Below, piece after piece: positions 2,719 through 46,650 of a stretch of DNA of 64,000 nt; the first letter of the stretch is position 1; each line of letters starts with the position of its first letter. This DNA comes from Caenorhabditis remanei. Its lineage: Eukaryota > Nematoda > Chromadorea > Rhabditida > Rhabditidae. Both the position numbers and the translations under genes were made by a program. Where the stretch lies: NCBI RefSeq assembly GCF_010183535.1, contig NC_071332.1, forward strand, positions 18,104,001 through 18,168,000. Direction: 5' to 3'. The notes under the pieces were generated by a model. The model saw nothing but the letters and a program-made list of their open reading frames with translations, ran no database searches and was not told the origin of the DNA.

Positions 2719-3920
2719 ACAACAATTAACGAAAACATTTTTTCAAAAAGTTTAATTTTCGTATCATAAGATAAACTCTGATAAAATGAAAGTTCGGCTA
2801 GTTTCTTGAAACAATTGAAATCAACGAAAGATTTGATTGCTTTGTTCTCCAGCTGATCCATTTGATACTTCTGAGCTATTCGAAGCTTATGCGGTCCATC
2901 GATTTTAGAGGAAATGATGAATAGTTCAAGAGTATGTTTGACAGATGGAAGAAGAAGGAATCGATCAGCAAGTTCCAGAAGATTTTCGGCATTATTCTCT
3001 GAAAATACTCATTTGAAAAAAAAATTGAAAAAAATGCATTAAAAGTACCGTTCGGCCAAATTGGATTATCCTGAACAAGACTCAAAAGAGCTGTGAAATC
3101 TTCGGAATTGACATCATTAATAGGGATTTCCTTCATCGATTTTTCTTTGAATTCCGAATTGAAAAGGGTGTTGAAGTAGTCGGAATGATAGGAGAGAACC
3201 TGGAATTCTTTCGGGATTTATTTGTGAAAATTATTACTTTCGACAAAACGAACCGCTTTATTAACATGTAATTTCTTTCCCTCGACAACCAAAATTGCAT
3301 CAGTTTTGTCCGATTGAATGTGAGGGAATTTTGGAATATCGATAATGATATATGGGTCGATATCGCTTCTATTTCTCAATGAGGCCTCATATGAGGGTCA
3401 TACTTTCTCATAGGCAAGCCGCGAGCGGTCGTTAAGAATATCTAACTTATACCATTCAGCGTATCCCATTTTTGTAGTAATAATAACGTCACTGACAATG
3501 AGATAAAGTTTCAAATAGAATTTCGCCAGTTGTAGGTGCAATCTTTCAGCCACTTCCAGTAGGTTTCCTGTGTCACATTCTGAATTTAAACATATTTTTT
3601 GAAGTGAATGAAATTCTCATACTATCGATTTCTGTCGGATTGCATTGGATGATACTCAAAACTGTGGCGAAGGGCTCAAAATCAATAGCCGGAAGCGAGA
3701 ACTCTGGTGGCGATTTCTCCCCGGAATCAGTGTCGAAAAGCGTCTTGAAGTAGTCAGAATGGTAGGAGAGAAGCTGAAATTTATGATGAAAGTTGTATTT
3801 TCAGAATTAAATTCATACAGCTTTGTTAACATGTAACTTCTTTCCTTCGACAACTAAAATCGCATCAGTTTTGTCAGATTGAGCGAATGTAGATTCGTAG
3901 CTAGCTGGAGTTTCAGACAT
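2679..3920 (-). pseudogene. BTB locus 1: two-BTB gene interrupted by an in-frame TGA
   Basis: First half: exon 1 3920-3829 (ATG, IYES-like start, SDKTDAILVVEGKKLHVNKA), exon 2 3773-3623 (LLSYHSDYFKTLF, SPPEF class), exon 3 from 3579 (NLLEVAERLHL). The frame meets TGA at 3400-3398 and then continues in the same frame, without a Met, into a second BTB start (HIQSDKTDAILVVEGKKLHVNKA) ending at 3254. Second half: exon 3199-3049 (VLSYHSDYFNTLF, MKEIPINDV) and exon 2998-2679 (NAENLLELADRF, IAQKYQMDQL). Loci 2, 3 and 10 have the same six-exon two-BTB layout without the stop, so this is best read as a nonsense-broken double gene. Two separate genes are less likely, because the second half lacks a start codon. 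The C-terminal residues look foreign, perhaps from the adjacent LTR. Confidence 0.72.
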
Positions 3921-4049
3921 CTTTGTCTGAAAAATATATATTTTGAGGGGTTTTCGGTTGCTGATCAAAAATTTTAAAAGAAACAATCAGTGGGAATTAA
4001 TGCGAAGCGTGTCTGAAAACATTGGGAAAAGCGGGTAAATTTTTGCTTG

Positions 4050-4095
4050 ACGGTGTTTGCGGACTTCATCGCTGCTTACCGTACTTTGGGGTGAT
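4050..4095 (-). promoter_or_regulatory. Shared upstream block, type 2, for BTB locus 1
   Basis: CGGTGTTTGCGGACTT followed by GCTTACCGTACTT (plus-strand reading) lies about 130 bp upstream of the ATG at 3920. Type 2 blocks also occur near 5725 (locus 2), 20588 (locus 10) and 33632 (locus 17). Confidence 0.6.
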
Positions 4096-4173
4096 AAAAA
4101 TCGAATACAGATAAAATAAAATTGCGATTCAACACAAATTCATTCAAATTTAAACAAGAAGACAAATCAATAT

Positions 4174-5616
4174 TTATTCTCGAACATCAAACAGCATACG
4201 ATGAAAGAGTTTTACTTTAGTCTCATCTGAGATACCTTGATAAAACGGAAGCATTGTAAGATCATTACAACTATTGAAATTGCCAAACGAATAGATCGCA
4301 TTTGACAGAAGCTCGTCTAATTTATACTTATCAGCAATTCGAAGTTTGTTCGGAGAATCGATTTTCGTGGAAATCAAGAATTGTTCAAGAGTGCGTTTGA
4401 CAGATGGAAGCATGAGGAATCGATCAGCAACTTCCAGAAGATTTTCGACGTTACTTTCTTAAAAAAAACCAAAATTAAAGATTAAATGTTTCATTGAAAG
4501 TACCGGTTGGAAAAATTGGATTATCCTGAACAAGACTCAAAAGTGCGGCAAAATCTTCGACTTTAACGCCTTCAATCGGGATTTCTGTCATCAATTTTTC
4601 CTTGAATTCAGAATTGAAAAGTGTGTCGAAATAGTCGGAGTGATAAGAAAGAACCTGAAATGTTCAATTGAATTCTTCAGGAATTTGAATTTCGGTCAAA
4701 ACAAACCGCTTTATTCACATGCAATTTCTTGTCGCCTATAATCAGAATTGCATCGTTTTTGTCCGATTGAGTGAATCTTGATTCATAAGTGCTTTGTAAT
4801 TCGTATGTAGTTGGCGCCTTGCAAGATCCGTGCATAACTTTAATTAATTGGTGAAAAAGCTTGACGTTTGACTCATTTGACAAAGAATTGAAAAATGTGT
4901 GGTACGGCGAATAAGTATAGCGTTGAAAACTCGAATCGTATCTACCTTGTAAATAATCCAGATTTGAGTCAAGCTGCGTGTGATTGAAAAGCTCATTCAG
5001 TTGGAACTTGTCAGCTAGTCGAATTTTGGTTTGTTTATCCTCGTTACTCAACATCAGTTGAAACTCCATAAAACGTTTAGCTCCAGTAAGTTGGAATCGA
5101 TCTGCGAGTTCCAGAAGTTCTTCTGCTATGCACGCTGAATTATTAAATAAGGTGTTAAATCAGAACTGTTTCCTTCTTACTGTTAAAATACAATGGATTC
5201 TTGTGAATGAAACTCAAAACTGTTCCAAATGCTATCCAATTGACGTCTTTGATTACGAATTCAGGTGGCGATTTCTCACCAGTATCCGAAGCGAAAAGAG
5301 TTTTGAAGTAGTCGGAATGGTATGAAAGAAGCTGAAAATGAGAAAATTTATTGGAAAAGTTATGAAATTCCACGAGTCTGACCGCTTTATTGATATGGAA
5401 CTTTGCAGTTGGAATTTGTTCCGAAGTGACGTCACTCTCCGCACTTGTTTTCGCGATTTTTGCCTGAAAGTATAACATTTTTGTGATCGTGGATTTGGAA
5501 ATCACCTCTGTTGGCGCTGGGACCGTTGTAATCTTCTCGACAATCAGAATTGCATCAGTTTTATCCGATTGAGGGAATGTTTGTTCGTAGAAACATTTGA
5601 CCGGCTGTTTCGACAT
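4174..5616 (-). CDS. BTB locus 2: protein with two BTB units
   Basis: Exons: 5616-5506, 5463-5383, 5331-5181, 5134-4707, 4654-4504, 4457-4174. The first two exons give an unusual split start (TFPQSDKTDAILIVE, then KFHINKA), separated by a 42-bp intron. The third is LLSYHSDYFKTLF with the SPPEF class. The fourth carries a helical tail (EELLELADRFQL...LADKFQLNELF...NVKLFHQL) and runs on without a stop into a second BTB start (SDKNDAILIIGDKKLHVNKA). The last two complete the second unit (FNSEFKEKLMTEIPI; VENLLEVADRFLM...RIADKYKLDELL). The final acceptor reads TTTTAAG rather than TTTCAG. The stop TAA overlaps an AATAAA polyadenylation signal. No MATH or Kelch domain is seen. Likely a CUL3-type adaptor, by family. 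Confidence 0.85.
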
Positions 5617-5721
5617 TTTTGTCTGTAATAAATATCATATATCTTTTGAATTGAATTGATATTTCTTCGTCTCCGAAGAGATATATTTGCTTCCAATTTC
5701 AAAAGCGGAAAAAGTTCAGCT

Positions 5722-5765
5722 TCGTGGTGTTTGCGGACTTCATGGATGCTTACCGTACTGTGGGC
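5722..5765 (-). promoter_or_regulatory. Shared upstream block, type 2, for BTB locus 2
   Basis: GTGGTGTTTGCGGACTT then GCTTACCGTACT lies about 110 bp upstream of the ATG at 5616. Confidence 0.6.
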
Positions 5766-5851
5766 TGATAAAAAATCAAGTTTGTACAAAATACGTGTGT
5801 TTTTAAACAACAATTCATTTAACATTAAACAATCAAAAACATCAGAGTTTA

Positions 5852-8800
5852 TTATCGAACATATTGCAGCATGTGGTAAAACAGTTTAATTTTTGTGTCA
5901 TCAGAGAGATTCTCATAAAACTCAAACTGCATAATATAATTACAATTTCTGAAATCGTTAATCGAAGCGATCGCCTTGGCCAGAAGGTCGTCTAATTTAT
6001 ACTTGTCGGCGATTCGAAGCTTAGTTAGTTGATCGATTTTTGGAGAAGTCAACAGAAGTTCGAGAAGATGTTTGACAGATGGAAGAAGAAGGAATCGATC
6101 AGCAAGTTCCAGAAGATTTTCGGCACTATTCTCTGAAAATACTCATTTTAAAATTGAAATTTTCTATTAAAGTACCGGTAGGAAAAATAGATTTATCCTG
6201 AACAAGACTCAAAAGAGATGTGAAATCTTCGGAATTGACATCATTAATAGGGATTTCCTTCATCGATTTTTCTATGAATTTTGAGTTGAAAAGAGCGTTG
6301 AAGTAGTCGGAGTGATAGGAGAGAACCTGGAATTTTTTTCCGAGATTTTCTAATGCATCTGCCCACGAAGAAAAAGTGTACCATTTAATGCATTTTTTTG
6401 CAAATTAATTCTACACGATAGTTCAAAGTGAACCTATGCAAACGCGCTCTTTTGAGAAAAATTGCTTACCTAAATTTTTTTGTTTAAACTGAAAAACTTT
6501 GTCAATATATAGTTTTTAGGAGAAATATAATCGAGAAAGGCCAATTTTTTGAAAAAACAAAAAATATCAAAAAATTGCAATTTAGGCGTCAAATATTGTC
6601 GCAACAAAAAAGTTCCGACATTTTTTCCCCCTCGGTGTTTGCGGACTCAAGCCAAAATTTGATAATTTTGGCTTGAGTCCGCAAACACCGACGAGAAAAA
6701 AATGTCGGAACTTTTTTATTTCGATAATAATATTACCAAAATGTAGTCTCAACAAAGCGCGTTTGCATAGGTTACGATTGAATTATCGTGATTCTATTCA
6801 CGAATGCAAATAAATGCATTAATCTGCTGTTTTGTACAGTAATAAGAAGCACTGAGAAACTTGTCGGCGCAAAATATCGCAAGCTGAAAATTCAATGCGC
6901 CTTTAATTTTTTGTGTGGATTTACGGGAGACCACACAAAAATTAAAGGCGCATTGAGTTTTCAGCTTGCGATATTTTGCGCCGAAAAGTTTCTCAGTGCG
7001 TCTTATTACTGTACAAAACAGCAGATTAATGCATTAATTTGCATTCGTGAATAGAATTAATTTGCAAAAATATGCATTAAATGGTACAATATTTCTTCGT
7101 AGGTAGATGCATAAAAATTAGCTTTTTCAAAATAACTAACCGCTTTATTGACATGAAGTTTCTTCTCGCCGACAGCAAGAATTGCGTCAGTTTTGTCCGA
7201 TTCTGCGAATGCTGGTTCGTAATTGTTTTTCAATTCATACTGAGCTGATGCCTCACAGGATCCATGCATGATTTTGACCAATTGATGAAAAAGCTTGATG
7301 TTTGACTCATTGGATAACGTTTTAAAATATCTATAGTGAGGGGAAGAACTGGAAGTATGAAAGTTCCCTCTAGATGGAGGGGTGATCTTAGAATAATCAT
7401 GCTTGGAGTCTAGCAGCGAATTATTGAAAAGCTCATTCAGTTTGAATTTGTCTGCTATTTCAATTTTCGACTTTTTAGGTTTACTACTGGTAAAAATCAG
7501 TTGAAATTCCAAATAACGTTTGGCTGCGGAAAGTTGGAATCGCTCGGTGAGTTCAAGTAGGTTTTCGAAGTCATTATCTGAAATTGAATCTATTTAGAGT
7601 AACCAGTCGGTTCACGTCGCCTAACGGCGACTAAACCTCCTTTTAAACACCACCCTTCTAGGTTTTTACAGTATATCGTAATTAATCCGAAAACGGACGC
7701 CATGTTCGGAATCCCCTGTTTGTCTGACTCTGACGATGACTAAAAATCTTTCAAATCGCCTTTGTGGATCAATCCGGAAACGGAGGACACGTTTCGAATC
7801 CTCTTTTTTCTATATCTGAATATAAGAAAAAATATTTCACATCCCCACATGGGTTTGATCCATCCACAGCCAACGTTGCCGAACTTGTCAGATCGGGTTC
7901 CTGAACGCATCGACCTTCCCCATTTGAAAGTCGAACTTCGCTTTGAAATATGGCCTCTCGCAATATGAACAAATTTGATTCATCCTTCTGGTGTAGTAAA
8001 GATCTGGTTGTACATCAGTAACAACTACTCTGAGAAGAGCTTCTTTCTTCTCGCCGACGTTTGGCGTTGGTTCTGTTGCTGTTCGACTTTTCAGTGTCAG
8101 ACTGTAGAGATCGTCGGACTGCTGTATCAGTTGCCATAATTTTTCAATCTCAATTTTGTATCATCCTGACTCTCAGCTTTTCGTTTGGCTACCATGCGAT
8201 TTGAATCAGCAGCTTTATTTTTCTGAAGTCAGTAAAAGTTGATCACTTTTTCTCTGTAAAGCGAGGTTATGCGTTTTTCTTATCTCGTTTCCACACTGAA
8301 TCCTGTGTCATCATCTCGTCCTCAATCTCGTCCATTTCGTCAAGCTCTACGATCATATGTGAACCGAACCAAGGCTGTCAAAAAGGCCGTTGGGCGATTT
8401 TATAACTCACTTCCCAGCCATGGAATATTTTCGCTTCTTCAGACGGCCTTGTAGAGGACCAAAAGATTAGTCGATATGCAAAAATTCAGTCCGACGTCTT
8501 CTTTTCGTCGTTTTTCTTCACCGACTCCTGTGTCATGCGTTGAATGTCCTGTATCCCATCAACTCCTCCGAGCTTCAATCTCCCATCTGATTCTGAGCGA
8601 TAGAGCACGCCTTGACCGGAAACAGGAAAAACAGCACCATACTCACCCACTAAATTGTCGGTAGGAACAGTAGTTGTTGGAGACAGTGACGCCATGAAGG
8701 GAATAGGAAAATGATAGTTATAAGCAGTTCAAAAGAATGGGATTTACGTGGCCACATGTCTGGACTTCAAGCAACTTCCGCTTTTCACTGTATTTTATAC

Positions 8801-10380: not shown

Positions 10381-10430
10381 CGGTGTTTGCGTACTTTGAG
10401 AACTACAGTACCCCCGATGTTATTCAGAAA
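10381..10430 (-). promoter_or_regulatory. Shared upstream block, type 1, for BTB locus 3
   Basis: CGGTGTTTGCGTACTTT, AACTACAGTACCCC and GATGTTATTCAG in order, about 100 bp upstream of the ATG at 10284. Confidence 0.65.
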
Positions 10431-10454: not shown

Positions 10455-10560
10455 GAGCGTTTCAAATTAACATCTAGAATCGAGAACTCCGGTGGCTATC
10501 CTTTTACGGAAGTAGTAGAGAAAATAATTTTGAAGTACTCGGAATGTCGTTGTTTGCGGA
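10455..10560 (-). pseudogene. BTB exon 2 fragment
   Basis: The minus strand reads HSEYFKIIF, then a stop, then PPEFSILDVN: a decayed SPPEF-class exon 2 with no neighbouring exons. A type 2 upstream-block remnant (GTTGTTTGCGGACATT...GCTTACC) adjoins it at 10543. Confidence 0.7.
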
Positions 10561-10671
10561 CATTATTGCTGCTTACCATATCTCGATATTAAAAAGAAAT
10601 GGAATAGGAATCTCAGCCGATTTCTAACACAAAAATGAAAGAAAACTGGAAGATTTATTAAAAGAAATCAG

Positions 10672-12295: not shown

Positions 12296-12398
12296 TGCTA
12301 GAAAAATTCTGAAAATTTTGAGAAAAAAATTTCACAAGGTAAATAATTATTGACAAGACAATGTTCAAAATTTTTAAAAAATAACAACAAATCAATAT

Positions 12399-14184
12399 TT
12401 ATCTCATAGATTTCACCAATTCAAGACAACGATTAAAAATTTTGAGATTGGTCTCTTCGGAATAATTTTTCAGCGTATTTTCATCCGGAATATGATTGAT
12501 ATGAGTGATTTCCAACAGGGATGCTTTCAGAAGTTCATCGAGATTATAATTGTTAGCGATTTGAATTTTAGCCGAGTAATAAAGTGAGGACGCGATAAGA
12601 AACAGTTCCACGTGACGCTTCGCCGCTGGAAGTTGGAATCGATCGGCGAGAACAATGAGTTTTTCAGCGTCTTTTTCTGGAAACAAACGATAAAGTGAAA
12701 AAACGAAAAAATCAATATATTACGTTCAAATTTAATCGGATTATCTTGAATGAGACTGAGGAGAGTCGCGAGCTCTTTATATGTGACTTGTTCGATTTTG
12801 ACTTCATTATTCTTCAAATTCGCATCGAAAACTTCTTTGAAGTAGTCGGAATGATAGGAGAGAAGCTGGAAAATTCATTTTTGTAAGTTTTTTTGAAATA
12901 TACTTTATTAACTTACCGCTTTATTAACATACAACTTAGTTGGTTGAACCCGGGCGGTTCTGGGGGCCACCGCAGGTTGTTGGGCTCTACCAGAGCTCCA
13001 TCTGATAACTTTAATCTGAAAAATTCGTGATTTAGAGAGCATTCTAGCAAGACTTGTCATAGGACGGACCGGCCTGTTTTCAACAATAATTAGAAATTAA
13101 AAAAAAAGTTTTGTACTAAAAATTTAAAATTCTATCAAAAAGTTGATCTGTATGAAAATAATTTACCGTAAAAACTCTATTTGAGTTGCCCCTCTATTTG
13201 AATTGCCCCTCTAATAGTGTTGCCCTCCGACGGACGCTTTGAACAATAGAGTTGCACCCCCTAATTGAATTGCCCCTCTAATAGAGTTGCCCCTCTAATA
13301 GAGGTGCCCCTGTCAGTACGCAAACACCGCGGTGACGAATCACTTGATGTTGATGAAATTTAAATTGATTAATCTCATTTCAATCCAATCTTGTTAAATT
13401 TGTTGTTTTCTTTTTAATTTTTTAGTTTTTTTGTTAATTGAAGTTATAAAAATTACGCCTTAAAATTAAAATTTCATCTTAAAAAAACATTTTGAACAAT
13501 AGAGTTGCACCCTCTATTTGAATTGCCCCTCTAATAGTGTTGCCCTCCGACGGACGCTTTGAACAATAGAGTTGCACCCCCTAATTGAATTGCCCCTCTA
13601 ATAGAGTTGCCCCTCTAATAGAGGTGCCCCTGTCAGTACGCAAACACCGCGGTGACGAATCACTTGATGTTGATGAAATTTAAATTGATTAATCTCATTT
13701 CAATCCAATCTTGTTAAATTTGTTGTTTTCTTTTTAATTTTTTAGTTTTTTTGTTAATTGAAGTTATAAAAATTACGCCTTAAAATTAAAATTTCATCTT
13801 AAAAAAACATTTTGAACAATAGAGTTGCACCCTCTATTTGAATTGCCCCTCTAATAGTGTTGCCCTCCGACGGACGCTTTGAACAATAGAGTTGCATGCA
13901 ACTCAAATAGAGTTTTTACGGTAAGCACTTTTACAATGAATTTTTGAAAATTTTCAAAGAATTCGTTGAAAAATGAGTACCCATTTTTGACATCGGGCCG
14001 GCCCGCTTGTTGTCTGATTCTGGCTGTAAACAATCACCTGTGGTTCGTAATGCACCGGAGCAAGGTAATCATCGTCGGAATCATCATCATTCTCCTCTTT
14101 TGGCTCGACAACTAGAACCGCATCAGTTTTGTCCGATTGGGCGAATGTTGATTCGTAGATATTCATCGCCGGAGTTGCTGACAT
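12399..14184 (-). CDS. BTB locus 5, with acidic N-terminal insert
   Basis: Exons: 14184-14038 (MSATPAMNIYESTFAQSDKT, then acidic EENDDDSDDD), 13015-12917 (KVIRWSSGRAQQ...KLYVNKA), 12865-12724 (LLSYHSDYFKEVF, VKIEQVTYKEL), 12676-12399 (AEKLIVLADRFQLPAAKRHV...NLDELLKASL). All phases fit (147 and 99 nt in the first two exons). The acidic linker splits the usual VVEGKKLHVNKA motif, as in loci 2, 7 and 10. Intron 1 carries a 770-bp TIR element with a 320-bp tandem repeat. A type 1 upstream block lies at 14290. Probably first gene of an operon with locus 4. Confidence 0.78.
13164..13933. mobile_element. TIR element CCGTAAAAACTC... with internal 320-bp tandem repeat
   Basis: Ends TACCGTAAAAACTCTATTTG and its reverse complement are flanked by TA. 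Inside, a 320-bp unit is repeated about 2.3 times: CTAATAGTGTTGCCCTCCG recurs at 13211, 13531 and 13851. Each full unit contains GTACGCAAACACCG, the core of the BTB upstream block. A related element lies at 46651-47064. Confidence 0.85.
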
Positions 14185-14284: not shown

Positions 14285-14336
14285 CAATTACGGTGTTTGC
14301 GTACTTTTGGAACTACAGTACCCCCGATATTATTCA
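14285..14336 (-). promoter_or_regulatory. Shared upstream block, type 1, for BTB locus 5
   Basis: ACGGTGTTTGCGTACTTTTG and AACTACAGTACCCCC then GATATTATTCA, about 105 bp upstream of the ATG at 14184. An inverted-repeat element begins directly after it. Confidence 0.65.
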
Positions 14337-14727: not shown

Positions 14728-14775
14728 AGCGGTGTTTGCGGACTTTGCCTTTGCTTACCGTACTTCAAGAAATAT
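14728..14775 (-). promoter_or_regulatory. Orphan type 2 upstream block
   Basis: GCGGTGTTTGCGGACTTTGC then TTGCTTACCGTACTT, upstream of only the exon 1 remnant at 14560-14625, so probably a leftover of a lost gene. Confidence 0.5.
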
Positions 14776-15663: not shown

Positions 15664-15779
15664 TACGATCTGAAAGTTGCTTTTTCTGAAAATAATGAGG
15701 GGAAAAATGATAGTATTAATCAGAGTATCTCGACTGCAATTAATTAATTTTACAAATAAAAAACAAGAAAATTGTTTTA

Positions 15780-17344: not shown

Positions 17345-17390
17345 GTTGCGCGGTGTTTGCGTACTTTCTAAAATACAGTACCCAAGGAAA
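17345..17390 (-). promoter_or_regulatory. Shared upstream block, type 1, for BTB locus 7
   Basis: GCGGTGTTTGCGTACTTTCT then ATACAGTACCC, about 115 bp upstream of the ATG at 17234. Confidence 0.6.
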
Positions 17391-18093: not shown

Positions 18094-18116
18094 GGCTGTA
18101 TAAAATCAAAACATAC

Positions 18117-18205
18117 GGTTTTTTACAACCGCGCTCTACCGAAAAAGAGAAAAATAGACATGTTTCAAAGACATTTCGGTGGAGCGCAGTTGCAAGAACT
18201 GTTCT
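18117..18205. mobile_element. Short TIR element, second member
   Basis: TTACAACCGCGCTCTACCGA and inverted TTTCGGTGGAGCGCAGTTGC, about 90 bp in all, between loci 8 and 9. Confidence 0.8.
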
Positions 18206-18286
18206 GAGCTAATAAAGAAAAAAGAGATATAAAAATGATATGAACACTTCGAATAGCAAAAAAAGCAAACATTTCGAAAAGTTTAT

Positions 18287-18950: not shown

Positions 18951-19139
18951 GTCTGAAAAGTTGACTACGGTAGATTGCCAAGTCCGCAAACACCGTGGCA
19001 TCGGAATTCAAATATTTTTCTCGGATTTAAACCGGTTTCGAATAAAAAATAGTTCTACATTGCATCAGTTTTTCATCAAATCAGTTTGGAAACGAAAGTA
19101 CACCAGAAAAAGTAGTCAATTAGCAACAATCAAGATTTT

Positions 19140-20582: not shown

Positions 20583-20630
20583 CGTCGCGGTGTTTGCGGA
20601 TTTTGATACTGCTTAAATACTGGCTCTTAA
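20583..20630 (-). promoter_or_regulatory. Shared upstream block, type 2, for BTB locus 10
   Basis: GCGGTGTTTGCGGATTTTG then TACTGCTTAAATACTGGC, about 50 bp upstream of the ATG at 20540. Confidence 0.5.
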
Positions 20631-20635
20631 TATTT

Positions 20636-20870: not shown

Positions 20871-21032
20871 CCAAGTCCGCAAACACCGTGACATCGAAAT
20901 TCAAATATTTTTCTCGGATTTTTACCGGATTTTTGCTAAATTTGAGTAAAAATCGTCAATTTCTCAACAAAAACAAGGTTTATGATAACAAATTTAACAA
21001 TTTTCAACAGCTTTAACAGTAAAATTAACAAT

Positions 21033-21825: not shown

Positions 21826-21870
21826 TGACGGTGTTTGCGTACTTTTGTAGCTACCGTAGCCCGAGAATAA
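21826..21870 (-). promoter_or_regulatory. Shared upstream block, type 1, for BTB locus 11
   Basis: GACGGTGTTTGCGTACTTTT then TAGCTACCGTAGCCC, about 130 bp upstream of the ATG at 21695. This variant (CTACCGTAGCCC instead of CTACAGTACCCC) is shared with locus 12. Confidence 0.65.
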
Positions 21871-23177: not shown

Positions 23178-23222
23178 ATGACGGTGTTTGCGTACATCTG
23201 TAGCTACCGTAGCCCGGGAAAA
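23178..23222 (-). promoter_or_regulatory. Shared upstream block, type 1, for BTB locus 12
   Basis: GACGGTGTTTGCGTACATCT then TAGCTACCGTAGCCC, about 80-120 bp upstream of the ATG at 23099. Confidence 0.65.
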
Positions 23223-24047: not shown

Positions 24048-24098
24048 AATGACGGTGTTTGCGTACTTTAGGAACTACAGTACCCTCGATATTATTCA
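24048..24098 (-). promoter_or_regulatory. Shared upstream block, type 1, for BTB locus 13
   Basis: GACGGTGTTTGCGTACTTTA, GGAACTACAGTACCCTCG and ATATTATTCAGAAAT, about 105-150 bp upstream of the ATG at 23947. Confidence 0.7.
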
Positions 24099-25012: not shown

Positions 25013-25194
25013 GGCAGATTCTGAAAAAAAAATTTCTTCAAATTCTGAATCATAGTCGAAAATTTGAAATTTTTTCGCAAAAATAATTCGAAAAATTTCA
25101 AGAAATTGACAGTTATGCATAAATAGATATTGGTGAATGTTAGACACAATGCTGAATTAAAAGAAGAAAAAAAAACAAAAAAACAACAAATTTA

Positions 25195-25916: not shown

Positions 25917-25965
25917 ATGACGGTGTTTGCGTACTTTAGGAACTACAGTACCTCGAATATTATTA
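25917..25965 (-). promoter_or_regulatory. Shared upstream block, type 1, for BTB locus 15
   Basis: GACGGTGTTTGCGTACTTTA, GGAACTACAGTACC and ATATTATTATTC, about 105 bp upstream of the ATG at 25815. A foldback element begins just beyond it. Confidence 0.68.
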
Positions 25966-27063: not shown

Positions 27064-29988
27064 CTAAACCAGGTTAAACTTAGACCTAGGAAACTTATTC
27101 TTTTGGCCAAATATTGTCCATAGCGCCATGGCGCTTGGTGGGTCTGCTTGACTTGTCTGGTTCCCGCTCGTGGAGCTGGAGTTGTCTCTCCGGAGTCTAT
27201 CGTTCCACTCCTTGAGCTCGTGGATTCGGAGATCCTGCCACAGAATCATCTCGCGAAGGCATGATGCTTCTTCTTCCGCATCCACCTGGATAACCTGGTG
27301 GTTGCTCACAGGGTCCTTTGACTTTTGTTGATTGGCCACTGACTGCTGCTTCAGCTTGTGGCTCCTTGCCATGTGTCCTACTTTGCCACAGTAATGACAC
27401 TTTCCTGTAAAAGTAAGCAAGATTTCTCTTCGACTTACCTGGGAGTCGTTCTCAGAACTACGACCTCCGTAGTCGTCGTCCCGACCTTGTCGTTCTGACC
27501 GATGGTCCCGACAATCATCTTGATCTTTGTGGTCGGTTGCCGTGTTTGCCAACGAAGCTGCCAGTTGTGTGGACAATTGGGTGGGCTCCGGCGGCTGCTG
27601 GTTGGGGACGAGGCATGCTTCTCCTTCACGAGCAGTGTCCGGGGTCTGATCTGTCGTCGATGGTGCCTCCCGTATGGCCAGGCTTTTGATTGCCTGGTTC
27701 AATCTTTCCAGGAGCCGTTCCAGTGAGACTTCGTTCTGGTACTCGGGATCCTTCCGATACTCGTGGTACGACTGCATCGTCAGCTTGAGAGCCTTGTGGA
27801 AGAGGGAATCGGCAGATGATTCACCTGGCGGATCGTAGGTTGATCGTAGGTGGCTTGCCTCGCTCGTTGAGCTTTCAGAAGTTGAGTAATGACTACCCTG
27901 ACTGATCCTGTCTAGTTGCTTTGAGAACTCCTCAATCTGCTCATCTCTTGCCTGGATTGCATCGCGAAGAGCCTTCACCTCGTCATCTCGAAAGACAGCG
28001 TTGACATCTATTTGGTGATTATGTCGCGGGTTCCAGTCCCTGTTAGATCGTTGGGTGATGATCCCGTTCTCGCGATCTTCTCGCTTCTGCCGACAACCTC
28101 GAAGGTAGTGTCCAGTCTTTTGGCAATAGTAACACTTTCTTTCGGACCATTCATTTCCGCCTCCGTTGTGGTTTCGTCTTCTGTTGTTCCGAGAGAGGTC
28201 GCGTTGGTTGACCCTATCCCTGTAGTCGATGACTATGTTTGTCGGAGAGGCTATCGGCTCTGTCGGAAGTTGTGCGTTTGGCGCGGGTTGGCCTGCCGAT
28301 GTTATACATCCGTCAACTGATACGGCATCACTGTGAGCTTCTTCGGGCGTTGCTTGTGTACGAAGCCATACGAGGGACTTGCTATCTGGGTTCAGATCAA
28401 TCAGGAACTTTTCCGGTGCTACTTCTTTCTTGGACGTCGTGTTGCCACTGTACGACTGCTTCGCTAGTTCGCTGATCCTGTGAAAGAATAACTCGGCAGA
28501 CTCTCCGGTGACTTTCTTGCTTGAACGCGATAGAGCTTTGCTTCTTTGCCTGTGGTTGGTGTCTACGAGCATTTCCTTCATTTCTTGAACGTTGTCATCG
28601 AATGTTGTATCCGGGCTCTCCGCCAGAATGCTCTCTGCGTCGTCCCTCGCTTCCTCCTTAAGCCCGGTAGGGAAAGTCCTATTGACATCTTCTTGAGACT
28701 CGTGTTCACTCTCCACGCCTTGTAACAGATCGTTGCTGTGTGAAGCCATGAGAAACGATGGAACCTGATGTCTTGCGACCACAGGGGTGTAAGGATGTTG
28801 CGTGTTTGTACCACTGTTAGGTGACAAACTACGGGTTCTGGTTGTGGTGGCGGCAGTTGGAGGGATGACACGGTGTTCATCCCCGCTTCCAACCCCGATC
28901 ACCTCTCGGTTCCGAAAACCACGATCGCTTACCTTACGATCCAAATCGACTGGTATCGTAGAAAGTTCTTCCTCCAAATGGTTCAGCTTCTCGGCCACGC
29001 AAAGAGCTCGATCGACTTGTCTCTGCACCAATTGCATGTTGACGCGCTGCTCCGCTGCCAGCTTGTTCGCTGCCTTACAGGCCATGTCCAGATTCTCGAT
29101 GGTCTCCTTCTTCATCAGCAGCAAGTGCCGGATTGTTGACTTCGTGTCGTCTGTGACACTATCACTTGACTTCTGGGCGTTCCAGGAAACCAAGTGGTTG
29201 CAGTTCCTCAGGGGATTGTTCATAGAACCAACCTTGTCAGCGTTGTGATCGCGTCCGCGATCTTCGTTCGGAATGGTCTCCAGGTTTTCTCCTGCTTGAT
29301 CCTTCAGCATTGTAGGAAATGCTCGCTCCTTGCCTCCATCCGGAGCTTCCTCTTCGATCCCTGCCACTCGACCTTTGAGTGCACGAACGGATCCGTAGAA
29401 ATCTTCTCGGCTCGTTTTGCCATGACTGTCCGGTGTTGGCGTTGCTCTGCCCGATGGCGCCATTACTTGAGGAATGAATCCGTCCTCGAAGTCCTCTTCG
29501 TCGCTTGTTTCGACCTGTTCCTCGGTGTACTTCCGTTGATTGACCGATGCATCTTCGTCACCTGAAAAGTTTTCCAGATCCCGGATTTCTCCGATTTCTT
29601 TCAACCGATTAGCAATGTAAGCTGTATTCAAGCCGAAGCCCGAGATACCAGCTGTTTCAGGTGTATTTCGAGACGGGCTCAGGCTTTCAGCCGAGGCACC
29701 GCTCGGTTTTACGCGTATGACCGGAGAAGTGACCTCAGCGAGATCAGCAACGGCAGTTGGTGGGCTGACACAGTGGTCAGCCCCTCCACCAACCCCGTGA
29801 CTGACCTGTATCGCTTCGGCGTAGTCTTCTCCTCCTTGACGGTTGTTGCTTTGACGTTCCAGTCTGCAAATACGAGCGTAACCTAGACGATTGACCACGA
29901 GAGAGGTCGGAAATAGTCCGCGAAAGACGAAAACATACGTAAAACAGCAAAAATATTTTAGGCCAAGACAAAATTTTGTCTTTCTCAA
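27064..29988 (-). CDS. Gag-like protein of the LTR element, two zinc-knuckle modules
   Basis: An open frame of 974 codons. Zinc knuckles: CYYCQKTGHYLRGC at about residues 617-630, and CHYCGKVGHMARSH at about 863-876, where the last ligand is His instead of Cys. Each is preceded by a helical stretch (LFHRISELAKQSY; LFHKALKLTMQSY), a glutamine/proline-rich linker and a basic Arg-rich stretch, and followed by NHQ(I/V)xV and an acidic coiled coil (RDEQIEEFSKQLDR; LRIHELKEWNDRLRR), so the C-terminal half is an internal duplication. The N-terminal half also has repeats (FPTMLKDQAG and FPTGLKEEAR). The start is uncertain: TTTGCAG near 29861 could be an acceptor joining an upstream exon such as the short coding-looking frame at 30552-30340. 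Confidence 0.8.
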   Translation of the reverse strand: MRKTKFCLGLKYFCCFTYVFVFRGLFPTSLVVNRLGYARICRLERQSNNRQGGEDYAEAIQVSHGVGGGADHCVSPPTAVADLAEVTSPVIRVKPSGASAESLSPSRNTPETAGISGFGLNTAYIANRLKEIGEIRDLENFSGDEDASVNQRKYTEEQVETSDEEDFEDGFIPQVMAPSGRATPTPDSHGKTSREDFYGSVRALKGRVAGIEEEAPDGGKERAFPTMLKDQAGENLETIPNEDRGRDHNADKVGSMNNPLRNCNHLVSWNAQKSSDSVTDDTKSTIRHLLLMKKETIENLDMACKAANKLAAEQRVNMQLVQRQVDRALCVAEKLNHLEEELSTIPVDLDRKVSDRGFRNREVIGVGSGDEHRVIPPTAATTTRTRSLSPNSGTNTQHPYTPVVARHQVPSFLMASHSNDLLQGVESEHESQEDVNRTFPTGLKEEARDDAESILAESPDTTFDDNVQEMKEMLVDTNHRQRSKALSRSSKKVTGESAELFFHRISELAKQSYSGNTTSKKEVAPEKFLIDLNPDSKSLVWLRTQATPEEAHSDAVSVDGCITSAGQPAPNAQLPTEPIASPTNIVIDYRDRVNQRDLSRNNRRRNHNGGGNEWSERKCYYCQKTGHYLRGCRQKREDRENGIITQRSNRDWNPRHNHQIDVNAVFRDDEVKALRDAIQARDEQIEEFSKQLDRISQGSHYSTSESSTSEASHLRSTYDPPGESSADSLFHKALKLTMQSYHEYRKDPEYQNEVSLERLLERLNQAIKSLAIREAPSTTDQTPDTAREGEACLVPNQQPPEPTQLSTQLAASLANTATDHKDQDDCRDHRSERQGRDDDYGGRSSENDSQVSRREILLTFTGKCHYCGKVGHMARSHKLKQQSVANQQKSKDPVSNHQVIQVDAEEEASCLREMILWQDLRIHELKEWNDRLRRDNSSSTSGNQTSQADPPSAMALWTIFGQKNKFPRSKFNLV

Positions 29989-32198: not shown

Positions 32199-32863
32199 GT
32201 ATATAGAGACAAGGCGTGTTTTATGAGAAGATTTAATCCATATTTATCACCAAGGATCAGTTTATAAAATGCCGCCAGTTCTGTAGATATCAGGAACAAT
32301 TCCATGTAGTTTGTAGCCGCTGGGAGAAGGAATCGGTCGGCGAGTTCCAGAATTCTTTCGGCATTAATAGCTGAAATTTCATAAGTGAAATATATCAATA
32401 ATTAGCTTAATTACCTGTCGGCGTAATTGGTTTCGGGTGAATCAGACTCAAAAGAGTAGCAAAATCTTCGAAATCGACATCTTCAATTTCGATTTCTGAC
32501 ATCGATTTTTCTTTGAATTCTCCATTGAATAGAGTGTTGAAGTAGTCTGAGTGACAGGAGAGAAGCTGGAAAATTAAATTTATTTTTGGAAATTCAAATT
32601 TATTGGAGAATTCCCACGAACCGTTTTATTGACATGCAACTTTTTTCCCTGGACAACCAGAATCGCATCGGTTTTATCCGTTGGAGCGAATGATGACTCG
32701 TAGATACATGTTTCAGGAGGTTGAGACATTGCCAACTGTAATTTCAGCGAGAAAATTTGTAAAAATTCGGAAAATGAAGAATAAAAAAGATATGAGAAGA
32801 AATTCAAAGATTCAAAAATGTTTAACCAAAGAAACCAACAAATAAAAGAAGATTTATTATTAT

Positions 32864-33628: not shown

Positions 33629-33672
33629 CGTCGGTGTTTGCGGACTTCGGTATTGCTTACCGTACATCGGGT
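33629..33672 (-). promoter_or_regulatory. Shared upstream block, type 2, for BTB locus 17
   Basis: GTCGGTGTTTGCGGACTTCG then TTGCTTACCGTACATCGGG, about 135 bp upstream of the ATG at 33497. Confidence 0.65.
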
Positions 33673-33713
33673 TGAAAAATTATAAAATTTCCACCGATAT
33701 TTATTATCGAAAT

Positions 33714-33835
33714 AAAAAAGTTCCGACATTTTTTCCTCGTCGGTGTTTGCGGACTCAAGCCAAAATTATCAAATTTTGGCTTGAGTCCGCAAACACCGAA
33801 GGGGAAAAAATGTCGGAACTTTTTTGTTGCGACAA
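33714..33835. repeat. Palindrome carrying the CCGCAAACACCG core, second copy
   Basis: Same palindrome as 6609-6722 with a slightly different centre, directly upstream of the type 2 block of locus 17. Confidence 0.88.
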
Positions 33836-33959
33836 TAAGTTAACAAAAAAATAGTTGAAAACAAAGAAACGCCAAAAATAAGAATATTGTTTACAACGCT
33901 TTAAAATTGATAAAACAAAATTGAACCCAATAAGAAAAACATTTTATTCAATAATATAT

Positions 33960-34138: not shown

Positions 34139-35519
34139 TCAAATGTTAATATGGAACTTTTTGTAAACTTTGAATGATTTTTGGTTCAGTGAGAATTGAA
34201 TGAAAAAATCTGAATTTCGAATTGAATACTCCCGAGGAACAGAACTACTCTGAAGATTCAGTTCTTGCTTGATCTTTTTTGTATCCAGTGTTAATGTACA
34301 ATTAATTTTACAAGATTTGAAATTGGTCGATTGAAATTGGTCGAGTGTCTGAAAAAAAACTTTTTTCATTTACTAGAATAGAATTGTACACTTACATCTA
34401 TCAATTTGGCAACATCTTCAGTGAAAAACGGCGTCGAACTCACTTCGAAAGAAGCGAAATTTGAAAAAATCCTTATTGGAACCATAAAAATTGTTTCGAC
34501 TTTGACATGTTTCGCTTGTTTCCACTGTTCCAATGTGGAAATTTGACTGTTTTCATGAATTAGTCCTCCTGTCAGAGTCATCACTTCAAGTGTTCCAGGC
34601 TTCAAACACTGCAAAACGCTTATCATTCTTTCGTCTCGTTCAGCGTTAATCGAGCAGTGCTCCACGTGGATTTTGTGATTCAGAGAGTTGAGAAGATCAT
34701 CGAACATAGTTATATATTTTCCTACAACCTTATTACGTAATGGTGAGGAATACCATGCGACACGAAGAGTTTCCAGTTTAAGTTTCGGATTCATCAGTGC
34801 AAATTTCAATTCCTCGAATGCGACTTCAGATCCTTGTAGATGGGGATACTTTAGCAACACATCATTGAGACGTAGAGTTATCAGATACGGGTAGATACGA
34901 ATTTCGATATTTTTGTAGGGCGGTTTCAGCCGATCAACGATGTTTCGAAGGCCAGAAGACACTTTTCGAAGCTTCAGACTGTAAAAATTGAGTTAATTGG
35001 ATTCTAGCAACAAAAAAATCAATGCTTACTATGTCTTCAAATCACATCGCTCAGCAATTTCAAAAAGAACATCATTTGGGAACAATAGAACAGGACTGAA
35101 TAGGTGTCCATTTTCGAAGCGTTTGAACCAATAGAGATGATCTTCCTTATCGATTTTATGATCTTTGAATGCTTTACACAAATCATCGATTGATTTTTCA
35201 GCAAGTTTTCCATTGATGACATCAGATAGAATGCATACATAGATATCAGGAATCGTGAGATCTCTGAAATTTTAAAACTGAAATTATTTTGAACATAAAA
35301 ACTCAATAATCACCTTTTCGCTATAGTAGAATGATAGTTTTCATTGAGACATCGATTGAAACAAAGCTCATATTCATCATATGAAATCCCTTGTTTTCCC
35401 AAATGTTCACACAAAACTCGATGACTTTCTATTGATTCTTGCATTGTTTTCCGTTGAGAAATGTCATAGAGCATGAGTGCACGGAGGTTGGCGGGAGAAT
35501 TCGGATCGATATCGGTCAT
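34139..35519 (-). CDS. F-box protein of the nematode fbxa type (F-box plus FTH/DUF38-like region)
   Basis: Exons: 35519-35314, 35273-35030, 34978-34396, 34348-34139. The N terminus (NLRALMLYDISQRKTMQES) and the next exon (HLYWFKRFENGHLF) resemble the HTH-like repeats that begin many C. elegans fbxa proteins. An F-box follows (LFPNDVLFEIAERCDLKTYL, then KLRKVSSGLRNIVD), then a long C-terminal part (YKNIEIRIYPYLITLRLNDV...LEVMTLTGG) of FTH/DUF38 character. Phases are consistent. Known role of the class: substrate receptor of SCF (SKR/CUL1) ubiquitin ligases. It lies inside the BTB array in the same orientation. No upstream BTB-type block is seen. Individual gene identity cannot be given. Confidence 0.85.
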
Positions 35520-37547: not shown

Positions 37548-37730
37548 TTCGCTGAATAATTGATTTTTCAGATTTTCAGTGAATCGCTTATGCACAATCC
37601 GTTCGTCACGTCACACATTATGTTGTAGAACAATTTCAAAATATAAAAAAGGAGATAATGTTTAGGAGTTAGGCAACTCACTTGAATTAAAGCAAAATTT
37701 ACAAGAGCAACAACATGATTAACATTTATT

Positions 37731-39169: not shown

Positions 39170-39222
39170 ATGACGGTGTTTGCGTACTTTAGGAACTACA
39201 GTACCCCGATATTATTCAGAAA
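39170..39222 (-). promoter_or_regulatory. Shared upstream block, type 1, for BTB locus 19
   Basis: GACGGTGTTTGCGTACTTTA, GGAACTACAGTACCCC and GATATTATTCAGAAAT, about 105-150 bp upstream of the ATG at 39068. A nested foldback starts just after it. Confidence 0.7.
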
Positions 39223-39228
39223 TATGGT

Positions 39229-40386
39229 GTTAAAGGCGCACGGAATTTGTTCGGATGGGTCTCATAGTTAGAGTGACGTGTCGAAAATAGTGTTGATCGA
39301 AATTTTCGATGAAAACCTAAATTTTTGATGCCGAAAATTTCGAACAAAAATCACGAAAACCGAAAAAGTTGCAAATTATTTCCGAAAAAACCGGCATGAC
39401 ATGACTTTCATTTCATTTCGAAAACCGAAAAAAAAAATTTTTCGGTTTTCGAAAAAAAAAATTTCCGAAAACCGAAAATTTTTCGGTTTTCGGTTTTTCG
39501 GAAATCGTGTCATTCCGACATTTCGGTTTCCGACACGTTTCGGAAAAAAGTCAACGGTTTTCCGAAACGAGATGGCCTAGAAAACTCCGCCCGTGTACTT
39601 CACGAGGACAATTCGTGTACTTCACGAGGACAATTTGTTTGTTGTGAATTTTTCATTATTTTTTTTTTCAATTTTGCGCTTTGTTTTCTAAATTTTTTTT
39701 ATTTTTCTGTACAATTATATGATTTTCAGAAAAAAAGAAGAAAATTTGCGAATAATTAATGTATTTTTACAAATAATTAATGTTTTTTTTGTATTTTTAC
39801 ATTATTTCTCCGATTATATGTTTTCCGAAAATCATATAATTCCACAGAAAAAAAATTTAGAAAACAAAGAGCAAAATTAGAGAAAAAATTAATGAAAAAT
39901 TCACAACAAACAAATTGTCCTCGTGAAGTACACGAATTGTCCTCGTGGAGTACACGGGCGGAGTTTTCTAGGCCATCCCGTTTCGGAAAACCGTTGACTT
40001 TTTTCCGAAACGTGTCGGAAACCGAAATGTCGGAATGACACGATTTCCGAAAAACCGAAAACCGAAAAATTTTCGGTTTTCGGAAATTTTTTTTTTCGAA
40101 AACCGAAAAATTTTTTTTTTCGGTTTTCGAAATGAAATGAAAGTCATGTCATGCCGGTTTTTTCGGAAATAATTTGCAACTTTTTCGGTTTTCGTGACAC
40201 GCATTGATATATATTTTTTCGATTTCCGGAACAAAAATTTCCGAAAACCGTGTCAACACGTCACTCTACTCATAGTTGAAATCATGAAAACCGCTGTAAA
40301 AATATTTAAAACCGCAGTAGAATACGGTTTTCACCTATTTCAACTACGAGACCCATCCGAACAAATTCCATGCGCCTTTAACACCC
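39229..40386. mobile_element. Nested foldback elements (about 1.16 kb)
   Basis: Outer arms: GGTGTTAAAGGCGCACGGAA...CGGATGGGTCTC and its inverse near 40341-40386. Inner arms from 39273 (AGAGTGACGTGTCGA) to about 40268 (CAACACGTCACTCT) enclose long palindromes of CCGAAAA/TTTTCGG and a GTGTACTTCACGAGGACAAT direct repeat. No coding content. Confidence 0.85.
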
Positions 40387-41275: not shown

Positions 41276-41610
41276 ATGACGGTGTTTGCGTACTTTATGG
41301 GCCTATTCTTGACAAGCGAAAAACGTTTTTCGCTGCTTTTTTTTCGACTCACGGAACCAGAAAATCAGCGAAAAACTCTTAGTTTTTCGCTGATTTTTAA
41401 ACGTTTTTCGCTGGTGTTCTTACCGTTCGCTTCGAGACCTGCGGTGTCGAAAAAGGCATGTGCCAGCGAAAAATAGTTTTTCGCTGATTTCCTTTTCTCG
41501 TGAATTGGAAAGAAATCGAATCGAAAAAAAAGCAGCGAAAAACGTTTTTCGCTTGTCAAGAATAGGCCCATTAGGAACTACAGTACCTCCGATGTTATTC
41601 GGAAATGGAA
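41276..41610 (-). promoter_or_regulatory. Type 1 upstream block of BTB locus 20, split by a transposon
   Basis: GACGGTGTTTGCGTACTTTA at 41279 and its continuation TTAGGAACTACAGTACC at 41571 are separated by a 273-bp inverted-repeat element; in other loci these parts are contiguous. Confidence 0.85.
41298..41570. mobile_element. 273-bp TIR element with TTA target duplication inside the upstream block
   Basis: Ends TGGGCCTATTCTTGACAAGC and its reverse complement, flanked by TTA at 41295-41297 and 41571-41573. Arms contain GCGAAAAACGTTTTTCGC palindromes. Confidence 0.95.
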
Positions 41611-41699
41611 AAAGCTTTTTAAGTTCGAGCAGAACATGGTTCGGACAATAGAAAATGATTGGAAATTATCGAAAAACTGGAAGAATAAATAAGTATACA

Positions 41700-41775: not shown

Positions 41776-41936
41776 ACTGATTTTTCAGATTTTCAGCGAA
41801 TCGGTTATGCACAAGCCTTTCATCACGCATTATATTATAGAATAATGTTAAATAAGAGATAATGTGCAGTAGTTAGGCAACTCTCTTGAATTAAAGCAAA
41901 ATTTACAAGAGCAACAACATGGGTATATTTATTTCA

Positions 41937-45480: not shown

Positions 45481-45858
45481 CTGCATCGATTTTTCTTTGA
45501 ATTCCCCATTGAAAAGAGTGTTGAAATAGTCAGAATTGAAGGAGAGATGCTGAAAATTTGACATATCCGAGAGGGAAAATTGTATATATTTGTATTTACC
45601 GCTTTATTAACATGCAACTTTTTTCCGTCGACGACCAGAATTGCATCAGTTTTGTCCGATTGAGCGAATGTTGACTCGTAAAAACTTGTACTTGACATCG
45701 TCACCTGCGAATTTCTTTAGAAAGGCAGAAGAAAATGAGCAGAAATCGATTATGCTTTTAAGTTTTCAGATTCTTAAGTATGAATAAGACTGAAACATGT
45801 CAAATTGATAAACAATACAACAAGAAGAAAAAAAAGAAACATCATTCATTCATAGAAA

Positions 45859-46500
45859 TCAGTTTTTTAAGCTCAGGACACGAGAGAGGACAGCTACTTT
45901 AACTTTATCGGAAAGTGACTGATATCTTGAATAGCTTTTCATATTATAAAATCTATCATCTTCGGTGAATTCGGAAATTCCTTGATCAAAAACTTTTTTC
46001 ATTTCATATTTATCGCCAATTCGAACTTTATCATAACGATCCATGTATGAATTAGCGAGGAAAAGGTCCAATGGAAATTTGACAGTTGGAAGAAGAAATC
46101 GATCAGCCAATTCCAATATTTTCTCAGCATTTTCTTCTGAAAATAATAATTGTTATATTGTATGAACCCCTAGGCGTTTTAAACTCTCACTTTTTGGACA
46201 AATTGGTTCTGCCTGAAGAAGACTCAAAAGAGTAGCAAAATCTTCGAATTTGACATCTTCAATCGGAATTTCTGGCATCGATTTTTCCTTGAATTCACCA
46301 TTGAAAAGGGTGTTGAAATAGTCGGAATGATACGAGAGAAGCTGAAAATTATAATTTCGAAGAGATTTTTGTTTGAAACATCTGACACTCACCGCTTTGT
46401 TAACATGCAACTTCTTTCCCTCAACAATCAGAATTGCATCAGTTTTATCCGATTGAGCGAATGTTACCTCGTAGATACTGATTGTAGGGGTTGCTGACAT
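45859..46500 (-). CDS. BTB locus 23
   Basis: Exons: 46500-46393 (MSATPTISIYEVTFAQSDKT, KLHVNKA), 46341-46191 (LLSYHSDYFNTLF, MPEIPIEDV), 46136-45859 (AEKILELADRFLLPTVKFPL...RIGDKYEMKKVF...KVKVAVLSRVLSL). Intact. Type 1 upstream block at 46610 with a TIR element inserted at its far end. Confidence 0.9.
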
Positions 46501-46606
46501 TTTTACCTGAAATAAACGTTTTAAAAATAAAGAAAACATTAGAAAATCAGTGAAAATTTCAGCAAATTCAGGCGAAAGAAATAAATAATTTTTCAAAGAT
46601 GAGCAA

Positions 46607-46650
46607 TGACGGTGTTTGCGTACTTTAGAAACTACAGTACCCCAGAGATA
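46607..46650 (-). promoter_or_regulatory. Shared upstream block, type 1, for BTB locus 23
   Basis: GACGGTGTTTGCGTACTTTA then AACTACAGTACCCC, about 110-150 bp upstream of the ATG at 46500. The element 46651-47064 separates it from a TATTCA remnant at 47066. Confidence 0.7.

Follow-up and report, generated by a model that had tools for sequence, protein, structure and literature searches.

In Caenorhabditis elegans, the paired motifs m1 and m2 were seeded by the CERP2 and CELE2 miniature inverted-repeat transposable elements (MITEs) and are reported for 284 of 782 germline-specific promoters; the m1m2 promoters tested need both motifs, and HIM-17 binds them (Carelli et al. 2022, PMC9757741). 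That article cites the pair of Linhart et al. as an earlier finding, and the pair described by Sleumer et al. (2012, PMC3575287), in which TACWGTA adjoins the reversed 12-5 motif (CCTTTRA) in C. elegans upstream regions, is stated there to be highly similar to that of Linhart et al. The reporter-tested C. elegans puf-5 promoter, in turn, contains TTACTGTAGCTTTAAAGGCGCACACC (PMC10366684). What is said of these three articles, here and below, draws on portions of their text. Here we analyze a 64-kb stretch of Caenorhabditis remanei DNA (G000:C5:18104001-18168000, hereafter the window; the assembly comprises 130.5 Mb in 186 contigs) that harbors a cluster of BTB genes, many of which are preceded by a conserved two-part block combining a TACNGTA palindrome with the core CGCAAACACCG.

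The position, conservation and genome distribution of this block, together with the partner it shares with an m2-like element, lead us to interpret it, with little more than even confidence, as a proximal promoter module of repeat origin, which would be divergently related to the CERP2/CELE2/HIM-17 elements and would have been copied along with the BTB genes. The block lies upstream of BTB first exons, with an acceptor-like TTNCAG between it and the ATG, and recurs outside the window, and this placement supports a proximal promoter.

A two-part block precedes BTB genes

The window contains 22 exact copies of CGCAAACACCG, where the genome-wide density of the core predicts 0.41 for 64 kb and 0.03 for 23 stretches of 200 bp; at up to two mismatches there are 40 matches, compared with a shuffle mean of 11.45. 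Fourteen exact cores and one copy with a single mismatch (locus 2) precede the ATGs of 15 BTB loci (1, 2, 3, 5, 7, 9, 10, 11, 12, 13, 15, 17, 19, 20 and 23) at distances of 34-134 bp, in agreement with the loci that an earlier sequence-only reading of the window had listed. That reading gave a distance of about 100-135 bp, and 50-130 bp for a few genes; the measured distance is 82-134 bp at 13 of the 15 loci, 47 bp at locus 10 and 34 bp at locus 9, where the block is inverted. The remaining 8 of the 22 exact cores lie away from these loci, four of them in MITEs (6633, 6680, 33741 and 33788), two in a tandem repeat, one in an extra type-2 block and one, inverted, at 20878.

Two types of block can be told apart. 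In gene sense, type 1 reads TACTGTAGTTNNTAAAGTACGCAAACACCG, often with GGGG directly before it, and type 2 reads TACGGTAAGCA-N8-GTCCGCAAACACCG. The sequence-only reading had presented the core and a "continuation" as a single motif, a construct that joined letters of opposite strands; the contiguous gene-sense order is TACNGTA followed by GTMCGCAAACACCG. Spacing between the palindrome and CGCAAACACCG is mostly 8, 12 or 15 bp, and GTA or GTC usually precedes the core. All 14 block-bearing genes examined have a TTNCAG acceptor 4-6 bases ahead of their ATG. Individual loci have kept different parts of the block: locus 20 retains the core and has lost TACTGTA, locus 10 has the core without the rest, and locus 21, described earlier as carrying a truncated block, has indeed lost the core while the sequence just downstream of it is still present.

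Conservation of the block relative to its flanks

Seventeen BTB promoters were aligned on the core, with the block defined as positions -20 to +10 (31 bp). Pairwise identity within the block is 84% in both ungapped and gapped alignments, an upper estimate since the promoters were picked for carrying the block, compared with 28% (ungapped) and 27% (gapped) in the upstream flank (-90 to -31, 60 bp) and 41% (ungapped) and 49% (gapped) in the downstream flank (+11 to +69, 59 bp). The block exceeds the flanks in all 136 promoter pairs. Conservation extends some way downstream, with a gapped identity of 0.64 at +11 to +29, where ATTGCTCAT recurs; this recurrent sequence may be specific to BTB genes.

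These values bear on the possibility that the blocks are functionless and resemble each other merely because BTB genes were recently duplicated together with their upstream DNA. The genes do form a tandem cluster, and many loci are alike beyond the block, sharing ATTGCTCATCTTTG downstream and TGAATAATATCG upstream. Among the 113 of 136 pairs with ungapped flank identity below 0.45 (mean 0.32), however, block identity is still 0.83, and gapped alignment of the upstream side leaves the same discrepancy (0.84 against 0.27). Moreover, the two block types have different flanks and yet hold the core and TACNGTA in common, and the core is also common outside the cluster, all of which makes simple hitch-hiking quite improbable.

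The extent of conservation also speaks to the possibility of a forkhead site of the FOXO/PHA-4 type, the sequence-only reading having remarked, as speculation, that GCAAACA resembles a forkhead site. GCAAACA fits the generic forkhead word and is part of every exact core; conservation, however, is not confined to that word. The conserved unit, GTMCGCAAACACCG, is longer and tied to TACNGTA, conservation spans TACNGTA through CACCG, and the same unit also occurs in MITE inverted repeats. We have accordingly set aside the forkhead site, which we regard as very improbable.

The block at BTB first exons beyond the window

BTB exon models were derived from iterated profile searches over six-frame peptides. 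A 35-residue first-exon query, for which 150 candidates were scored, so that further BTB exons may exist, returned at least 135 matches, mostly in groups on C5 and C2. The 44 first exons retained for the test are those with matches reaching query residue 1-3; the C2 cluster, whose matches start at query residue 4 or later, falls outside this set. A composite was defined as TACNGTA and core jointly, a definition under which loci 10 and 20 score as misses, and 78 composites were present among the matches listed. A composite lies 83-176 bp upstream of 21 of the 44 first exons, 9/14 inside the window and 12/30 outside it.

Of the 78 listed composites, the C5 BTB cluster accounts for 28, of which 21 are matched to a first exon, and the other 50 are elsewhere. 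Among the seven unmatched composites of the cluster, loci 7, 9 and 11 contribute one each, their exon 1 being absent from the 44; another is the extra block at locus 5, and two are in stretches that were not fetched. For the last, at C5:18414204 in L061, the seeds used located no BTB first exon close by. The listed C2 composites (2341649, 17575444 and 19823484) are at least 17 kb from any listed C2 BTB exon. On C3, a composite at 400798 is separated by 632 bp from a BTB exon match (C3:400062-400166), on the start side of that match. Two of the positive exons, C5:18547137 and C5:19124358, are 577 kb apart and share 800 bp of identical surrounding DNA (L055 and L056), and this pair may stem from a recent duplication or else be an artefact of the assembly.

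Distribution in MITEs and dispersed repeats

Genome-wide, the core occurs 827 times (422 + 405 on the two strands), compared with 29 (12 + 17) for its reversed control. The type-1 composite, with up to three mismatches allowed, occurs 49 times and is absent from the control. Among the type-1 composites whose surrounding DNA was inspected, all eight at C5 18.08-19.12 Mb precede BTB first exons, and none of the 25 on C3, C1, C2 and C5:4.78 Mb has a BTB exon within 330 bp downstream. These 25 are in or near dispersed repeats, most of them in a ~300-bp repeat or in related ones, and the C3 copies also have GGGG before TACTGTAG. A second, m2-like composite, TTACTGTAGTTTAAAGGCGCA, occurs 76 times when up to one mismatch is allowed, against zero in the control; it clusters at C3 15.16-16.08 Mb, overlapping the stretch in which type-1 composites cluster. 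Arrays of the ~300-bp dispersed repeat were seen at C3:15.16-15.84 Mb (L049, L050 and L051), and in L049 modules of TACTGTAG and GTACGCAAACACCG are interspersed with modules of TTACTGTAG and TTAAAGGCGCA.

Forty C1 stretches (L009-L048), fetched around the first C1 places listed, provided a sample of 52 cores. Sixteen of these are in close inverted pairs, and 19 (the 16 paired cores and three near-palindromic copies) were read as lying within palindromic elements, some of which have the ends TATTGTCG/CGACAATA. Together with two MITEs in the window, these C1 copies place the motif in MITE inverted repeats. The surroundings of the C1 cores contain 480 open reading frames (ORFs) with a length of 80 aa or more; in a Pfam search of 83 of them, none matched the BTB family (0/83), and MATH matched once. 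The claim that the block is specific to BTB genes therefore fails on the genome-wide number of cores, the 50 of 78 composites outside the C5 cluster and the C1 ORFs, and we rejected a BTB-specific mark on the ground that the core is found in MITEs and dispersed repeats across the genome.

This distribution raises the alternative that the blocks have no regulatory role and are left over from repeats with an insertion preference for open promoter DNA. In favor of this alternative, the core in MITE inverted repeats, the MITE separated by 37 bp from the block of locus 17 and the presence of the type-1 block within a dispersed repeat can be adduced. Such an origin would not by itself account for the narrow spacing to the ATG in the window (82-134 bp in 13 of 15 loci), nor for paralogues that have retained the block and not the repeat flanks, even with some decay or loss (loci 20 and 21, and L057:2094). 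We consider it unlikely that the blocks are residue and nothing else.

Relation to germline promoter elements

The m2/12-5-like element TTAAAGGCGCA has 2,917 copies in the genome, against 62 in the control, and shares its partner with the BTB core. In 67 cases TACNGTA lies on the 5' side of the core at a distance of 6-18 bp, and in 37 cases on the 3' side at 0-12 bp, each against about 7.5 expected from density; at 0-12 bp from TTAAAGGCGCA it occurs in 568 cases against about 26 expected (a few sites being counted twice). The enrichment of TACNGTA near both elements reproduces the TACWGTA flank of the R12-5 12-0 pairs. At locus 19, an m2-like TTAAAGGCGCA (39230-39240) lies on the opposite strand, next upstream of the type-1 block, and in alignment this block and the TTACTGTAGTTTAAAGGCGCA repeat module differ by short gaps, with none of 1,000 shuffles as good. 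A literature search with GCAAACACCG and Caenorhabditis returned nothing on a regulatory motif, as judged from the listing alone.

Several results weigh against this kinship, and against a promoter role more generally. The core does not conform to the m2 consensus, AAAGTACGCA differing from TTAAAGGCGCA by substitutions and a gap; where TYAAAGG would be expected the type-1 block has CTAAAGT, and type 2 lacks the element. An m1-like GCGAGA/TCTCGC, which an m1m2 promoter would be expected to carry at 10-30 bp, is present within 70 bp of none of 14 blocks (locus 9 being outside the 14), and GCGAGA is not enriched near the C1 core sites (1/52 against 2.4 expected). The likeness of the puf-5 promoter to the locus 19 block is modest and gapped, with 5 of 1,000 shuffles scoring as high, and the mei-2 promoter fails to match (734 of 1,000 shuffles as high). 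Five matches of a THAP family search passed the cut-off; they are distributed over C3, C6 and C8, no two of them adjacent, and include no clear HIM-17 gene. To these must be added the 23 of 44 BTB first exons without a listed composite within 300 bp, the selection of the aligned promoters noted above, and the core sites away from BTB genes, whose promoter role is putative. A canonical m1m2 pair was rejected, as the m1-like core is missing and the m2 consensus is unmatched; since GCGAGA is missing from the 14 tested blocks and the m2 consensus is not matched, we call the block a diverged relative only.

Short intergenic gaps and the operon hypothesis

The sequence-only reading had proposed that block-bearing BTB genes stand first in operons of two genes, the genes without the block being downstream cistrons trans-spliced to spliced leader 2 (SL2). 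The observation behind this proposal stands: loci 4, 6, 8, 14, 16, 18 and 22 lack the block, and each closely follows the stop codon of an upstream BTB gene, with gaps of 103-193 bp, a length that genes within an operon would be expected to show. Gaps were measured for block-bearing loci 1, 2, 7, 9, 10, 11, 12, 13, 15 and 23, a set from which 3, 5, 17, 19 and 20 are excluded. They amount to 253, 235, 247 and 219 bp at loci 1, 2, 7 and 12, and to 440-1162 bp at loci 10, 11, 13, 15 and 23. The rule that short gaps go with block-less genes thus holds for the seven block-less loci and is broken by locus 9, which has an inverted block and yet a gap of 189 bp, within the block-less range. A block placed about 100 bp upstream, an outron and a 3' untranslated region would together need some 200 bp, so that the correlation with gap length is partly built in and constitutes weak evidence, block and outron enlarging the gaps in any case.

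Among the block-less first exons outside the window, six in L057 and L061 were assessed (L057:79, at the stretch edge, was left out), and three of the six fit the operon pattern, with gaps of 119, 186 and 174 bp. The first of these belongs to a diverged version of the locus 5>4 pair on the opposite strand (C5:18088951-18089940; L057:7952-8941), which keeps a short gap (119 against 103 bp) and a block-less second gene and has an inverted core with one mismatch 157 bp before its first exon; the other two are L061 genes 1011 (gap 186 bp) and 6645 (gap 174 bp). The pattern is not fitted by L057:4877 (gap 347 bp) or by L061:2039, for which no BTB-type upstream stop was seen, and L057:2094 has a decayed block 101 bp upstream and a gap of 383 bp.

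TAYYTT, an Ur-like element, is found in 6 of the 7 block-less gaps and in 10 of the 14 block-to-ATG stretches, and provides no separation. Four of the 7 block-less genes in the window have TTNCAG no more than 13 bases from the ATG, compared with 14 of the 14 block-bearing genes examined, and AATAAA-like words are present in 3 of the 7 block-less gaps in a scripted count that leaves out words overlapping the stop codon. In addition, most listed composites and all sampled C1 cores lie away from the BTB genes of this cluster. With locus 9, the split outcome outside the window and the many copies away from BTB genes, the block is not supported as an operon marker as such; an operon-specific mark was rejected because the core and the composites abound away from BTB genes. 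The proposal as made in the sequence-only reading, in which block-bearing genes would lead two-gene operons and block-less genes would be SL2-spliced, draws on the seven window loci, the diverged 5>4 copy and the two L061 genes, and we put it somewhat below an even chance, while considering operons plausible for the seven short-gap genes of the window. As the block is also found in transposon-like repeats and resembles worm germline promoter elements, a repeat-linked promoter switch is preferred to an operon tag.

Other features of the window

The block copies, block-less gaps and repeats of the window are collected in Table 1. All BTB exon matches listed for the window are on the minus strand. 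Pfam BTB matches were obtained for 3 of the 10 window ORFs scanned, one of the three below the curated cut-off, and an Rfam scan of the window at gathering thresholds gave no matches. Loci 1 and 2 (3059-3920 and 4514-5616) apparently code for two tandem BTB domains apiece, an ATG-bearing first exon being followed by a second pair of exon-1-like and exon-2-like sequences without a block of its own. Near the MITE at 6594-6729, a second palindromic element (6896-6952) carries two inverted copies of TTAAAGGCGCA. The 320-bp tandem repeat is read as sitting in intron 1 of locus 5. A 974-aa open frame at 27064-29988 has two CCHC zinc-knuckle stretches and is perhaps part of a retroelement, and within the cluster an ORF at 34366-34962 encodes an FTH domain, a domain usual in nematode F-box proteins.

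Table 1. Block copies, gaps before block-less BTB loci, and repeats, in window coordinates
Feature	Position	Strand	Remark
Type-2 block, locus 1 (TACGGTA...GTCCGCAAACACCG)	4051..4083	-	130 bp before ATG 3920
Type-2 block, locus 2, one core mismatch (CGCAAACACCA)	5725..5757	-	108 bp before ATG 5616
Second copy of 136-bp MITE	6594..6729		inverted cores 6633, 6680
Type-1 block, locus 3	10381..10411	-	96 bp before ATG 10284
Decayed type-2-like block, upstream of locus 3 type-1 block	10548..10580	-	
Gap before block-less locus 4	12296..12398	-	103 bp, possible intercistronic region
320-bp unit repeated 2.2 times, 99% matches	13183-13896		cores 13319, 13639
Type-1 block, locus 5	14291..14321	-	106 bp before ATG 14184
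Complete type-2 block	14730..14762	-	~440 bp upstream of locus 5 type-1 block
Gap before block-less locus 6	15664..15779	-	116 bp
Type-1 block, locus 7	17351..17381	-	116 bp before ATG 17234
Gap before block-less locus 8	18094..18286	-	193 bp
Inverted block, locus 9, TACCGTA gene-proximal	18966..18995	+	core 34 bp before ATG 18950
Core only, locus 10	20588..20598	-	47 bp before ATG 20540
Type-1-like block, locus 11 (TACGGTAGCTACAAAAGTACGCAAACACCG)	21829..21859	-	133 bp before ATG 21695
Type-1-like block, locus 12	23182..23211	-	82 bp before ATG 23099
Type-1 block, locus 13	24053..24083	-	105 bp before ATG 23947
Gap before block-less locus 14	25013..25194	-	182 bp
Type-1 block, locus 15	25921..25951	-	105 bp before ATG 25815
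Gap before block-less locus 16	32730..32863	-	134 bp
Type-2 block, locus 17	33632..33664	-	134 bp before ATG 33497
Palindromic MITE, 136 bp, ends TATTATCG / CGACAATA, two inverted cores	33702..33837		37 bp upstream of locus 17 block
Gap before block-less locus 18	37548..37730	-	183 bp
Type-1 block, locus 19	39174..39204	-	105 bp before ATG 39068
Core of locus 20 (AAAGTA kept, TACTGTA lost)	41280..41290	-	107 bp before ATG 41172
Gap before block-less locus 22	45699..45858	-	160 bp
Type-1 block, locus 23	46610..46640	-	109 bp before ATG 46500

Proposed origin and function of the module

Under the interpretation of the block as a repeat-derived promoter module, the composite of TACNGTA and CGCAAACACCG belongs to a repeat-linked sequence class found throughout the genome, and has its TACNGTA partner in common with the m2-like TTAAAGGCGCA, whose C. 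elegans counterpart is found in MITE-derived, HIM-17-bound germline promoters. In the most likely history, the module came to sit upstream of an ancestral member of the C5 BTB cluster and became its promoter, and would then have been copied, and kept under selection, as the BTB family duplicated. As the likely mechanism, a sequence-specific factor would bind the pair, the best candidate being a THAP protein such as HIM-17; expression is predicted in the germline. Transcription would start between the block and the ATG, the TTNCAG that immediately precedes the ATG serving as the trans-splice site. For the block-less BTB genes located 103-193 bp past an upstream stop, transcription may come, as for downstream cistrons, from the preceding gene's block.

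A bolder and decidedly tentative extension, which we hold to be rather unlikely as it stands, is that TACNGTA and GTMCGCAAACACCG constitute a second, diverged, repeat-borne promoter code beside the CERP2/HIM-17 network, taken over by an expanding family of BTB ubiquitin adapters and spread with it, such that one element may control dozens of lineage-specific genes. If the interpretation as a repeat-derived promoter module is right, the co-option of transposons as promoters would extend to a tandemly expanding gene family, and the block would predict which BTB genes have a promoter of their own. The cluster would also offer a natural series for the base requirements of the promoter, comprising intact blocks (loci 3, 13, 15, 19 and 23) and blocks with the partner lost (locus 20), the core lost (locus 21), inverted orientation (locus 9) or decay (L057:2094).

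Comparison with known systems

The arrangement at the BTB genes differs from m1m2, as portrayed in the portions of Carelli et al. (2022, PMC9757741) drawn upon, in that its core is CGCAAACACCG and not the m2-type TTAAAGGCGCA, its partner is TACNGTA, no GCGAGA is nearby, and arrangement and spacing are not the same; a term search of the main text of that article found neither BTB nor operon. As far as the relevant parts of Sleumer et al. (2012, PMC3575287) go, it is likewise distinct from the R12-5 12-0 pair, for 12-5 is CCTTTRA (reverse TYAAAGG) whereas the type-1 block has CTAAAGTACGCA, and 12-0, with its core GCGAGA, is missing at the BTB blocks. The palindromic MITEs of the genome with TATTGTCG/CGACAATA ends carry GTCCGCAAACACCG, as type-2 blocks do, but the BTB blocks have neither the MITE ends nor the palindrome.

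The likenesses concern the architecture as a whole. The same excerpts describe m1m2 as a two-part motif near gene starts in Caenorhabditis, with words common to MITE inverted repeats and promoters and with repeat copies outnumbering promoter copies (PMC9757741), and each of these features is matched by the BTB block. As in the R12-5 12-0 pair, TACWGTA stands beside an AAAG-containing element in promoters (PMC3575287, in part), and the puf-5 promoter, in the portion of PMC10366684 concerned, presents TTACTGTAGCTTTAAAGGCGCACACC, whose parts follow the same order as those of TACTGTAGTTCCTAAAGTACGCAAACACCG. By analogy with these systems, the BTB block probably works like the m1m2 germline promoter elements.

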